Assembly: GCF_003149085.1 (NCBI RefSeq)
Contig: NZ_QGDT01000001.1
Coordinates: 496,001-560,000, forward strand
Reading direction: 5' to 3'
Length of the DNA stretch: 64,000 bases
Origin: Dyadobacter jejuensis
Lineage (GTDB): Bacteria > Bacteroidota > Bacteroidia > Cytophagales > Spirosomataceae
Translations under genes and position numbers: made by a program
In this document: positions 7,050 to 38,663 of the stretch, piece by piece
Position numbering within the stretch: the first letter of the stretch is position 1
How the letters are laid out: the number at the start of each line of letters is the position of its first letter
The notes under the pieces: model-generated
The model's database searches: none
The model's input: the letters and a program-made list of their open reading frames with translations, nothing else
What the model was told of the DNA's origin: nothing

Positions 7050-7107
7050 TCGTTCTATTTGAGCTGTTTAAAGTAAATCCAGCAATACCATAAACACTGT
7101 TGAAATT

Positions 7108-35363: not shown

Positions 35364-35510
35364 TTTTCGTTGCGTTAAGTATTTGCTGTATAAGGTATAA
35401 AAAGCTATGCCAGCAAAAAAGACCAGGAGGGGTTTGTGATTTTCTTAATTCTTAATAACTTGATTGACAATGGTTTGGTCTCCTGAATAAATATTCTATG
35501 AATATAATTG

Positions 35511-35533
35511 ATTTAATAAACAGTGTTTAGTAT
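35511..35533 (+). promoter_or_regulatory. Putative TetR operator, copy 1 (upstream of tetR)
   Basis: A 23-bp sequence whose core TAAACAGTGTTTA (35517-35529) is a 13-bp palindrome with one central base. The same 23 bp occur inverted at 36587-36609 with one mismatch. It lies just before the tetR start, so it fits an autoregulatory site. Confidence 0.6.
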
Positions 35534-35558
35534 GTTTGCGCTGTTTATAATGATCGAA

Positions 35559-36176
35559 ATGGGAATATCTGAACGGAAAGAAAGGGAGCGAGAAGAAATG
35601 CGGGCACTCATATTAGAGGCCGCGAAACATTTATTTTTGGAACATGGCTATGCCAAAACCAGCATCCGAGGCATTGCCGACCGGATCGAGTACAGTCCGG
35701 CAACCATTTACCTATATTACAAGGATAAAAAGGAGCTGATGTTGGCCCTGCAGGTAGAAGCCTTTGGGAAAATGAATGCTTCTTTTGGGGAGCTGCTGGC
35801 CATCGCAGATCCCTTCGCACGCCTGCAACGCATGGGAGAGCTTTACATTTCCTTTGCCTTGGAGAATCCGCAGCTATACGACCTGATGTTTATGCTGGAG
35901 GCTCCTATGGAGGCGCTCGAATGTCAGCAAGATAGTTGGCTGAATGGGATGCAATCCTTCGACTTCCTAAAACAAAGCATCTGGGACTGTGTAGAAGCGG
36001 GTTATTTCGAAGAGTCAGCCGATATAGACGCTCTGGCCCTTACGGTATGGAGCTATATGCATGGCTTGGTGAGTCTGTATCTAAAGGGTAGGATGGTTAT
36101 TTTTGGGGAGGATTCTCAGTTAGACCGGTTGCGTGAATCGCAGCGGAATTTTATAGATCTCTTAAGTAAAAAATAG
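35559..36176 (+). CDS. TetR/AcrR-family transcriptional regulator
   Basis: A 205-residue repressor. The N-terminal helix-turn-helix is RALILEAAKHLFLEHGYAKTSIRGIADRIEYSPATIYLYYKDKKELM; the rest is the ligand-binding and dimer domain. The frame is open from a GTG at 35523, but that codon lies inside the palindromic operator at 35511-35533, so ATG 35559 (MGISERKERE) or 35550 is the real start. DUF4260 follows by 7 bases as an operon partner. Its likely targets are itself and the flavoprotein gene at 36638. Confidence 0.9.
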   Translation: MGISERKEREREEMRALILEAAKHLFLEHGYAKTSIRGIADRIEYSPATIYLYYKDKKELMLALQVEAFGKMNASFGELLAIADPFARLQRMGELYISFALENPQLYDLMFMLEAPMEALECQQDSWLNGMQSFDFLKQSIWDCVEAGYFEESADIDALALTVWSYMHGLVSLYLKGRMVIFGEDSQLDRLRESQRNFIDLLSKK

Positions 36177-36183
36177 CGATAAT

Positions 36184-36549
36184 ATGAAGAAGGTTTTACA
36201 ACTAGAAGAAGCGGCTCAATTCCTGTTAGGGGTGTTTTTGTTTTCCAAACTGGAATTTCCATGGTGGTATTTTCCTGCCTTCTTACTACTGCCCGATTTG
36301 AGCATGCTGGGGTATTTGGGCGGTAACCGAATAGGGGCAGGAGTCTATAATTTCTTTCACCATAAGGCGCTGGCTGTGGCGATAGGTGCTGTGGGTATGT
36401 ATATGAGTATGCCTCTTCTCATGTTAGCAGGGATTATTTTGTATGCTCATTCGGCTATGGACAGGGGCTTGGGGTATGGACTGAAATATAGCACTGGCTT
36501 CCAGGATACCCACCTCGGGAAGATAGGGAAGCATGAGTCGCAGGGCTAA
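36184..36549 (+). CDS. DUF4260-family small membrane protein
   Basis: A 121-residue membrane protein with about three or four hydrophobic segments (PWWYFPAFLLLPDLSMLGYL; ALAVAIGAVGMYMSMPLLMLAGIILYAH). The ending AHSAMDRGLGYGLKYSTGFQDTHLG is diagnostic of DUF4260. Function unknown. It starts 7 bases after the tetR stop and ends at a terminator, so the two genes form a small operon. Inner-membrane location is inferred. Confidence 0.85.
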   Translation: MKKVLQLEEAAQFLLGVFLFSKLEFPWWYFPAFLLLPDLSMLGYLGGNRIGAGVYNFFHHKALAVAIGAVGMYMSMPLLMLAGIILYAHSAMDRGLGYGLKYSTGFQDTHLGKIGKHESQG

Positions 36550-36557
36550 AGGGTGGC

Positions 36558-36580
36558 AAAGGCTTTCGAGCCTTTTTTTT
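36558..36580 (+). terminator. Rho-independent terminator with a UUCG loop
   Basis: AAAGGCT (36558-36564) / AGCCTTT (36569-36575) with a TTCG tetraloop and a run of eight T (36573-36580). Textbook terminator for the tetR-DUF4260 operon. Confidence 0.93.
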
Positions 36581-36586
36581 GCCTTG

Positions 36587-36609
36587 ATACTAAACACTGT
36601 TCATTAAAT
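36587..36609 (-). promoter_or_regulatory. Putative TetR operator, copy 2 (upstream of the flavoprotein gene)
   Basis: Read on the minus strand, this is 22/23 identical to the site at 35511-35533; the core is TAAACACTGTTCA on the plus strand. It lies between the terminator and the start at 36638, where a repressor would block the flavoprotein promoter. Confidence 0.6.
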
Positions 36610-36637
36610 ATTGTATGTATATTAAAAATCTAAATTT

Positions 36638-37216
36638 ATGAAAAAAGTACTTATCATCAACGGCCATCCCGACGATCAGAGTTATGGTGCCGCATTGGTA
36701 GAAGCCTACCGAGCTGGAGGGGCAGAGTCTGGTGCTCATGTGAGGGTATTGGCACTTTACGAATTAGAATTTAAGGTTAGCCTGGCCCATGGTTACCGGA
36801 AACGCACCGAGCTGGAGCCCGATCTGCTAGAAGCACAACGGCTGATCCAATGGGCCGATCATTTGGTATGGGTGTTTCCGATATGGTGGGGCAATATGCC
36901 AGCATTATTGAAGGGGTTTATCGATAGGGTGTTCCTTCCTGGCTTTGCCTTTGCTTACCGCGACAACTCGGTATGGTGGGACAAGCTATTGGCCGGCCGA
37001 TCGGCGCATATCATCAATACCCTCGACCAGCCGTATTGGTACTATTGGCTCGTCAACGGGCGGCCTTCCTACCATGCTATGAAGAAAATGACCCTAGAAT
37101 TCTGTGGTATCAAGCCGGTGCGAGTAACCAGCATAGGTCCTATCCGAAAGTCGTCCGTCGGATTTCGGGAGCAATGGCTGCAGAAAATAAATAAAATGGG
37201 GAGACAATTGTACTAA
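36638..37216 (+). CDS. NAD(P)H-dependent oxidoreductase, flavodoxin fold (NQO1/MdaB-like)
   Basis: A 192-residue flavoprotein. The flavodoxin-like motif VLIINGHPDDQSYG at the N-terminus and VWVFPIWWGNMPALLKGFIDRVFLPGFAF identify the quinone reductase/MdaB family, which reduces quinones or electrophilic substrates with two electrons from NAD(P)H. The region HIINTLDQPYWYYWLVNG is aromatic-rich and probably shapes the substrate site. A candidate TetR operator lies directly upstream, so it is probably induced by the TetR ligand, perhaps a quinone or an electrophile (inference). Confidence 0.9.
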   Translation: MKKVLIINGHPDDQSYGAALVEAYRAGGAESGAHVRVLALYELEFKVSLAHGYRKRTELEPDLLEAQRLIQWADHLVWVFPIWWGNMPALLKGFIDRVFLPGFAFAYRDNSVWWDKLLAGRSAHIINTLDQPYWYYWLVNGRPSYHAMKKMTLEFCGIKPVRVTSIGPIRKSSVGFREQWLQKINKMGRQLY

Positions 37217-37310: not shown

Positions 37311-38663
37311 ATGAAAATTCTAAAAATCTTGTTGTCTATCCTAGGGATCATCTTGGGGCTCCTATTGGTGATGGTGGCAACGATGGTAACGACCATGGAT
37401 AAAACGCCCTATAAGGACATGCCTTATTATAGCGAATGGAAGGCCAGTATTGCGGCCCAAGAACCCTATTCGGCAGCCAGTCCCGGAGCCCTTCAGGTGG
37501 GATGGGCCAAGGTCAATATCACCCCCGAAGGCCCTATGTCTATGGCTGGGTATGGTAATCGGCATGGTAAGCCATATACAGTCGTTCATGATTCGCTTTT
37601 TATCCGTACCATGGTGATCGACAATGGGGGCGAACAGGTGGCCATAGTAACTGGCGACTTATTGATAATCCCCCCTACGGTTTCCAAGGCTCTGGAAGTC
37701 CGGATGAAAGGCCATAAGATTCCCTATGAGCGGGTGTATTTCGGGGCTACCCATAGTCATAATAGTTTGGGAGGCTGGGGGACTGGAATTTCTGGCTTAT
37801 TTTTCTCGGGTGCCTACGACCAGGCCGTGGTGGATCGGCTAGCCGATGCCGTGCTCGAGTCTATAGACAAGGCCAGCACGCAGCTAGTGCCGTCTGCAAT
37901 CCGCTATTCCGAGGCCATCGATACGGTCGATATCCGCAACCGACTCGTCGGCGAAGAAGGGGGGATCGATCCGGAGGTACGGTCCATCATCGTGGCCCGT
38001 GCCGATGGGCAGCAGGCCATTTTGAGTAGCTATGCCGCTCACTCTACCGTAATTCAGTCCAAAAACATGGTCCTTTCCAGGGATTATCCCGGAGTCTTGG
38101 TCGACTCTTTGGAGCGGGGACATTACGACTTCGCCATGTATATGGCAGGTGCCGTAGGCAGTATGGGACCTATAGAAAAGGGTCGTGACGATTTTGACGA
38201 AATGAAAAATCAGGCCTACGGTGTTCAAAAGGCTATTCTACAGGCCGATACCCTGTCGAGCGCCGATTCCCTGGTGGGTATACGCTCCCTGATGCTACCC
38301 CTGCCGCTTCGGCAGCCCTCTCCCCGCCTGACCATGGGCTTGGTGCTAAGGCCCTGGGCCTTCAAAAAGGCTTTTGGAGCCTTTCCAATATATGTTAAAG
38401 CCCTTAGAATAGGGGGCCTTTTGTTGGTGGGTATGCCTTGTGACTTTTCGGGAGAATTGGTCCCTGGGCTCGATGCCTATGCCAAAACCAAAGGACTTAA
38501 CCTGATGGTAACCAGCTTTAATGGTGGGTATATTGGGTACATCACCCACGACAAATATTTTGATAGAGACTTGTATGAAACCAAGACGATGAGCTGGTAT
38601 GGGCCCTATAACGGAGCCTACCTCCAGGAGGTCATTAAGGATATTATCGATAAGCTGTCCTAA
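37311..38663 (+). CDS. Membrane-anchored ceramidase-like hydrolase (neutral/alkaline ceramidase N-terminal domain)
   Basis: A 450-residue protein with an N-terminal hydrophobic segment (ILLSILGIILGLLLVMVATMV) that should anchor it to the membrane with the enzyme outside. Residues 60-440 match the N-terminal domain of neutral/alkaline non-lysosomal ceramidases: VGWAKVNITPEGPMSMAGYG, GATHSHNS with the zinc-binding histidine, DIRNR, and SSYAAHSTV with a second ligand. It lacks the C-terminal Ig-like domain of full ceramidases (usually 650-750 residues). The substrate could be ceramide or another N-acyl lipid; Bacteroidota commonly make sphingolipids. A hotdog thioesterase follows at 73 bases. 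Confidence 0.8.
   Translation: MKILKILLSILGIILGLLLVMVATMVTTMDKTPYKDMPYYSEWKASIAAQEPYSAASPGALQVGWAKVNITPEGPMSMAGYGNRHGKPYTVVHDSLFIRTMVIDNGGEQVAIVTGDLLIIPPTVSKALEVRMKGHKIPYERVYFGATHSHNSLGGWGTGISGLFFSGAYDQAVVDRLADAVLESIDKASTQLVPSAIRYSEAIDTVDIRNRLVGEEGGIDPEVRSIIVARADGQQAILSSYAAHSTVIQSKNMVLSRDYPGVLVDSLERGHYDFAMYMAGAVGSMGPIEKGRDDFDEMKNQAYGVQKAILQADTLSSADSLVGIRSLMLPLPLRQPSPRLTMGLVLRPWAFKKAFGAFPIYVKALRIGGLLLVGMPCDFSGELVPGLDAYAKTKGLNLMVTSFNGGYIGYITHDKYFDRDLYETKTMSWYGPYNGAYLQEVIKDIIDKLS

Follow-up and report, generated by a model that had tools for sequence, protein, structure and literature searches.

Paired predicted operators in a pump-less version of a Bacteroidota TetR-RND efflux regulon in Dyadobacter jejuensis

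The window, a stretch of 64,000 nucleotides of Dyadobacter jejuensis DNA, carries two nearly identical inverted sites that flank a tetR gene and a gene for a DUF4260 membrane protein. The two sites very probably serve as operators for the TetR protein, whose gene lies between them at 35559-36176. From the sites themselves, their conservation, the overlap of one of them with a promoter, the gene content of the locus and the absence of an orthologous outer-membrane factor, we consider a coherent account likely: the encoded TetR would bind and repress at both sites, a ligand would release it from both, and the locus would descend from a pump regulon whose pump has been lost.

Paired sites and the genes around them

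The segment 35511-35533 (ATTTAATAAACAGTGTTTAGTAT) and the reverse complement of 36587-36609 (ATTTAATGAACAGTGTTTAGTAT) are identical at 22 of 23 positions, and a looser inverted similarity extends over 46 nt at 74% (35488-35533 / 36587-36632). Between 34500 and 38000 the top inverted 23-mer match is this score of 22, against top scores of 16 to 19 in 60 dinucleotide shuffles. A recount confirmed the inverted 23-bp pair put forward in the preliminary description, and the palindromic nature that it gave to the core is borne out except for the central base (TAAACA-G-TGTTTA). Its placement of the sites also stands, with site 1 at the tetR promoter and site 2 before the flavoprotein gene, ending 28 bases 5' of it. 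The terminator that it drew beside site 2 fared less well, as terminator-like matches are not above shuffles in the region (3 against a mean of 2.3) and the hairpin folds no better than shuffles do (z -0.72).

The exact core TRAACASTGTTYA has two copies in the 5.76-Mb genome, both at the tetR locus, and the reversed control pattern has none. With one mismatch allowed, TAAACAGTGTTTA finds 7 matches in the whole genome against 8 for the control, so that genome-wide rarity alone is a modest argument. Across 20 genomes the exact core occurs at 49 places against 19 for the control; since it does not exceed the control in some of them (2 against 2 in G139, 2 against 4 in G003), the case for operators rests on position beside tetR and not on rarity alone. 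Shortly upstream of uvrA, at 7091-7103, lies a one-mismatch copy of the core. It was rejected as an operator and is probably a chance match, because it is not conserved: the best matches in the 160 nt upstream of uvrA have 4 or 5 mismatches in 11 relatives.

The core of site 1 overlaps a predicted tetR promoter of the Bacteroidota type. A -7 element of the form TAnnTTTG has been described for Bacteroides and Flavobacterium, and a TTTG motif near -33 for B. fragilis (PMC7366714). In a profile of 82 loci the -7 positions are T in 100%, A in 87%, T in 100%, T in 100%, T in 78% and G in 60%, and in their core-aligned consensus, TRAACASTGTTYAKTATATTTG, the operator runs directly into the -7 element. 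Judged against the consensus, site 2 has a weak promoter. A scan for sigma-70-type promoters, which was not built for Bacteroidota, gave 4 matches in the region against a shuffle mean of 3.9. The gene starts at 35559, 36184 and 36638 hold, the first being preferred over the 35523 of the ORF caller because in several relatives the site is followed by an identical ATGGGN stretch with which tetR begins.

The TetR protein carries a TetR_N domain (PF00440, 54.3 bits, cut-off 24), and its helix-turn-helix region, of the type SIRxIAxxIEYSPATIYLYYKDK, is kept in nearly all orthologues, the search pattern missing it in one locus (L189). The closest solved sequence to the flavoprotein is 3lcm/4f8y (E 4.8e-29), named putative oxidoreductase or NADPH quinone oxidoreductase, and NQO2 matches at about 6e-14; with the Flavodoxin_2 assignment in Pfam, the earlier label 'NQO1/MdaB-like' is acceptable for the fold. 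The features of the locus are collected in Table 1.

Table 1. Features of the tetR locus, in positions of the window
Feature	Position	Strand	Remarks
TTG, possible -33 promoter element of tetR	35508..35510	+	Proposed from sequence; weak
Operator site 1 (predicted)	35511..35533	+	Core TAAACAGTGTTTA at 35517-35529; core upstream of tetR in 74/76 loci
-7 promoter element TATGTTTG (TAnnTTTG)	35531..35538	+	Overlaps the 3' edge of site 1
TetR-family regulator	35559..36176	+	PF00440 N-terminal, PF13305 C-terminal domain
DUF4260 protein (PF14079)	36184..36549	+	152.9 bits, cut-off 27; invariant D38, H59, H89, D93; model mean pLDDT 87.7
Terminator-like hairpin and T run	36558..36582 (hairpin 36558-36575)	+	Between DUF4260 and site 2; not significant against shuffles
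Operator site 2 (predicted)	36587..36609	-	Core TAAACACTGTTCA at 36591-36603 (+ strand); precedes the flavoprotein gene; second site in 65/74 loci
Flavodoxin_2 NAD(P)H oxidoreductase, quinone-reductase-like	36638..37216	+	PF02525, 131.4 bits, cut-off 27
Alkaline-ceramidase-like protein (PF04734)	37311..38663	+	Next gene after the flavoprotein, same strand

Conservation of the sites and content of the regulon

In the family, 165 of 200 genomes have TetR matches at E<=1e-20, in a sample that includes Larkinella and Spirosoma, two genera placed by NCBI in Cytophagales. Counting the window, 84 tetR loci were mapped, and eight that had been found through the motif (L180-L187) were left out of the recount. 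The remaining 76 consist of 40 listed TetR matches, mostly from the top of the list, four loci reached through DUF4260, 31 further TetR matches and the window; they do not amount to 76 independent events, as many are close relatives. Loci with DUF4260 and without tetR (L143-L147) were excluded from the tetR counts, as was L198.

Site 1 is exact in 66 of these motif-independent loci, differs at one position in 8 and at four in 2, which places the core upstream of tetR at no more than one mismatch in 74 of 76. The second site, assessed in the 74 loci with a recognised target gene, has no mismatch in 51, one in 14 and two or more in 9, so that 65 of 74 carry the core at this threshold before the next target gene. 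Shuffles of all 84 and 82 regions gave 0.225 and 0.235 expected loci at the same threshold. Seven of the nine failing second sites belong to loci with DUF4260, DUF3995 or 4HBT cargo, and 7 of the 23 DUF4260-bearing loci are without a second site at one mismatch. The two loci without site 1 (L189, L190) each have an exact core before the gene of the outer membrane efflux protein (OEP), and no target gene was recognised in L113, a 6-kb contig, or in L195.

The sites extend beyond the family. Among 395 genomes sampled from the phylum, 41 have a TetR match at E<=1e-25, and of the best-matching 27 readable loci, 17 have the core at no more than one mismatch upstream of tetR, 17 have it within the 120 nt that follow the gene and 12 have it at both places, against expectations of 0.09 and 0.01. 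A genus-wide scan with a long pattern and three mismatches found matches in 45 of 48 genomes; as the control pattern also matched in many of them, the places beside tetR alone were used. A palindromic site that overlaps a promoter is thus conserved at TetR orthologues, an observation that concerns its presence and not its binding. The motif, whose absence beside orthologous tetR genes was to count against the preliminary description, is found there.

Of the 76 loci, 70 carry an OEP gene downstream of tetR, accompanied by an HlyD-type adaptor gene in 69 and, within the stretch examined, by an ACR_tran (RND) gene in 57, the three identities having been set on one example each. The second site is found at no more than one mismatch in 61 of the 70 OEP-bearing loci. 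Other genes appear as cargo at varying positions: DUF4260 in 23 loci, DUF3995 in 19, the flavoprotein in 16 and a 4HBT thioesterase in 12. The frequency of OEP (70/76), set against those of DUF4260 (23/76) and the flavoprotein (16/76), argues for a TetR-RND pump regulon in which detoxification-like genes are optional cargo. The earlier model of a TetR circuit acting on tetR, DUF4260 and the flavoprotein is supported by the conservation of the sites, and it had overlooked the pump regulon. The quinone-like ligand of that model, whose sole support is the presence of the flavoprotein, becomes only one possibility since the regulon mainly serves an efflux pump.

One could go further and see in TetR a dedicated sensor of quinones (electrophiles), with quinone defence through the flavoprotein as its main job. 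In the six pump-less loci that bear the flavoprotein, the second site is placed at or just before the quinone-reductase-like gene, and the nearest solved relative of this enzyme is an NADPH quinone oxidoreductase. Yet the flavoprotein occurs in 16 of 76 tetR loci against 70 of 76 for the outer membrane efflux gene, so that quinone defence cannot be the common job, and we regard this reading as unlikely. Nor does the enzyme by itself single out quinones, for its relatives reduce nitro compounds too. Azoreductases and quinone oxidoreductases are moreover counted as one FMN-dependent superfamily (title of PMC4051601).

A further question is which protein occupies the sites. Another regulator, for example a TetR paralogue, might bind them in place of the TetR whose gene they flank: the genome of the window was counted as having a second TetR match at E<=1e-20, and G184 and G213 have paralogous TetR loci that share the core. 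The exact core, however, is found nowhere else in the genome of the window, and from genus to genus the sites accompany this tetR, which leaves such a binder very improbable. To see in the pair the remnant of a mobile element or a chance inverted repeat, devoid of regulatory role, is scarcely credible, for although the 46-nt similarity is longer than a short operator needs, the same core recurs at the same places in 74/76 and 65/74 loci, and in other families, and the 22/23 pair was never reached in 60 shuffles. Operators of the TetR encoded at the locus thus remain the preferred reading.

Probable loss of the pump, and related systems

As operators, the two sites would allow a simple circuit. 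A TetR dimer on site 1 would cover the spacer of the tetR-DUF4260 promoter and block it, and a dimer on site 2 would block the flavoprotein promoter. A toxic small molecule bound by the C-terminal domain of TetR would make the repressor leave both sites, whereupon tetR-DUF4260 and the flavoprotein would be made together. The ancestor of this circuit was probably the widespread Bacteroidota TetR-RND efflux regulon, its second site driving the pump operon; in the lineage of the window, loss of the pump genes would have left detoxification-like genes under the old switch.

No OEP was recognised in 8 of the 84 loci, namely L113 and L195, without recognised target, and six loci with the flavoprotein. 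These six (the window, G139, G178, G213, G201 and G206) have the flavoprotein and a ceramidase-like gene instead of OEP, the alkaline-ceramidase-like gene being present in 6 of 6. On the TetR tree the window and G139 form one pair (100/100) and the other four pump-less loci another clade (100/100); the pump-less loci need at least two changes on this tree, read with a midpoint root and long-branch warnings. No efflux genes were recognised beside tetR in the window locus, and an OEP query at E<=1e-20 found no match in the genome of the window (G000) or in its sister G139. The same query gave matches of 30-34% in the other four pump-less genomes and of 70-76% in two pump-bearing sisters. The test of pump loss used the outer-membrane factor alone, and other RND pumps may serve the cell. 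As pump-bearing loci surround both pump-less groups, loss is the simpler direction, and we infer that in the lineage of the window the pump genes were lost and the switch was retained.

Paralogous TetR genes at L151 (G184:C14) and L152 (G213:C1) each have two exact core copies beside them, and an OEP gene with 31% identity to the query lies near both loci. Pump regulons that share an operator type in this way could be subject to cross-talk.

Among open-licence papers, no publication was found on this TetR, its Bacteroidota operator or the TetR-DUF4260 pair. The nearest system in the literature is BmeR5-bmeABC5 of Bacteroides fragilis, where BmeR5 is described as binding the bmeR5-bmeC5 intergenic region and repressing the bmeABC5 RND pump operon (PMC4790292). 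As in the regulon described here, a proposed TetR regulator stands beside an RND pump operon in the same phylum; unlike the BmeR5 locus, the window is without pump genes and has DUF4260 and the flavoprotein instead, the likeness being drawn from the published description of the system. AcrR/AcrAB and CmeR/CmeABC are presented in the same source as TetR-family local repressors and their RND efflux genes (PMC4790292). In a PDB sequence search, the window TetR is weakly related to AcrR (2qop) and TtgR (2xdn), at E ~1e-6, and other TetR proteins (3cjd, 7w2o) rank higher. TtgR is likewise a TetR-family local repressor of RND efflux genes, and pump-operon repressors such as AcrR and TtgR usually sense varied toxic compounds. 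In arrangement, the regulon differs from the AcrR, TtgR and CmeR systems by its pair of promoters, each with a single operator, and by its optional cargo.

The spelling of the site has a parallel farther away. The core TGAACASTGTTCA fits TGAAC-N3-GTTCA, the form of the sites predicted for BioQ, which regulates biotin genes in actinobacteria and is of the TetR type (PMC3398298). BioQ belongs to another phylum and acts on other genes, and is compared here through the spelling of its sites; this spelling argues that the operator type is shared by regulators other than those of pumps. An exact core match in the text of PMC3398298 is a primer and not an operator, and the other papers with the core spelling are unrelated by title.

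DUF4260 and the significance of the locus

Of the 395 genomes sampled from the phylum, 80 contain DUF4260, and 22 records place it on plasmids of, among others, staphylococci, haloarchaea and Gemmobacter. One DUF4260 gene, on a plasmid of Staphylococcus cohnii, lies beside a VraH-family gene (L322, 4001-4345). In viral contigs, none of 14 pattern-matching stretches was confirmed as DUF4260. Among the 80 loci of the named scan, which are the best 80 of at least 584 confirmed stretches and may omit genomes near that of the window, the present TetR adjoins DUF4260 in one. Outside the family, a Crp-type regulator stands immediately upstream of DUF4260 in 9 of 80 loci (13 matches in 12 loci overall). 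A conserved gene of about 250 amino acids does so in 29 of 80 (e.g. L292, Maribacter), and two more neighbours are frequent; we take these three to be cyclase-family, GNAT and YjbR-like proteins. The contexts of DUF4260 elsewhere point to no single function.

Residues D38, H59, H89 and D93 are invariant in 70 sequences and also in 10 that include Bacillota, a haloarchaeon and Gemmobacter, the residues invariant in both alignments including E8, D38, Y55, N56, H59, H89, D93 and R94. The AlphaFold model (mean pLDDT 87.7, pTM 0.80) consists of helices throughout, and D38, H59, H89 and D93 lie within them or beside them. No solved relative was found at E<=1 by profile search or at E<=0.001 by Foldseek, and a further structure comparison gave one match, with Z 3.1 over 57 residues, an outcome that speaks for neither a new fold nor a known one. 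In the literature on membrane enzymes of azoxy biosynthesis, to which Ady6 and VlmO belong, weak homology to DUF4260/PF14079 is mentioned for Ady6 (PMC9379638). VlmO is described as a membrane-bound N-N-forming enzyme with the essential residues D51, H82, H110 and D114, which probably bind iron (PMC11705231). DUF4260 has the same D, H, H, D order and the HxxxD motif; the spacings differ (31/28/4 in VlmO, 21/30/4 in DUF4260), and the residues are matched by their order to a VlmO known here by description. This VlmO-like order, the HxxxD motif and the position of the residues in or beside helices of the model make a metal site plausible. A bolder proposal would make DUF4260 a small membrane-bound metalloenzyme of the VlmO kind: the flavoprotein would reduce nitro, azo or quinone-imine toxicants to hydroxylamine-like products, DUF4260 would process these at the membrane by N-O or N-N chemistry, and enzymatic detoxification would have replaced the pump under the same repressor. 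We hold this scenario to be distinctly unlikely.

The locus offers a concrete, predicted operator of a TetR-RND efflux regulon with occurrences in several families of Bacteroidota. It also provides a natural case where pump genes were seemingly lost at least twice, with the regulator, both operators and the flavoprotein staying linked, and a lead on the function of DUF4260 through a residue pattern held in common with a membrane enzyme that makes N-N bonds. The system of the window is a pump-less version of a known regulon type, and the role of DUF4260 in it is the more interesting point.
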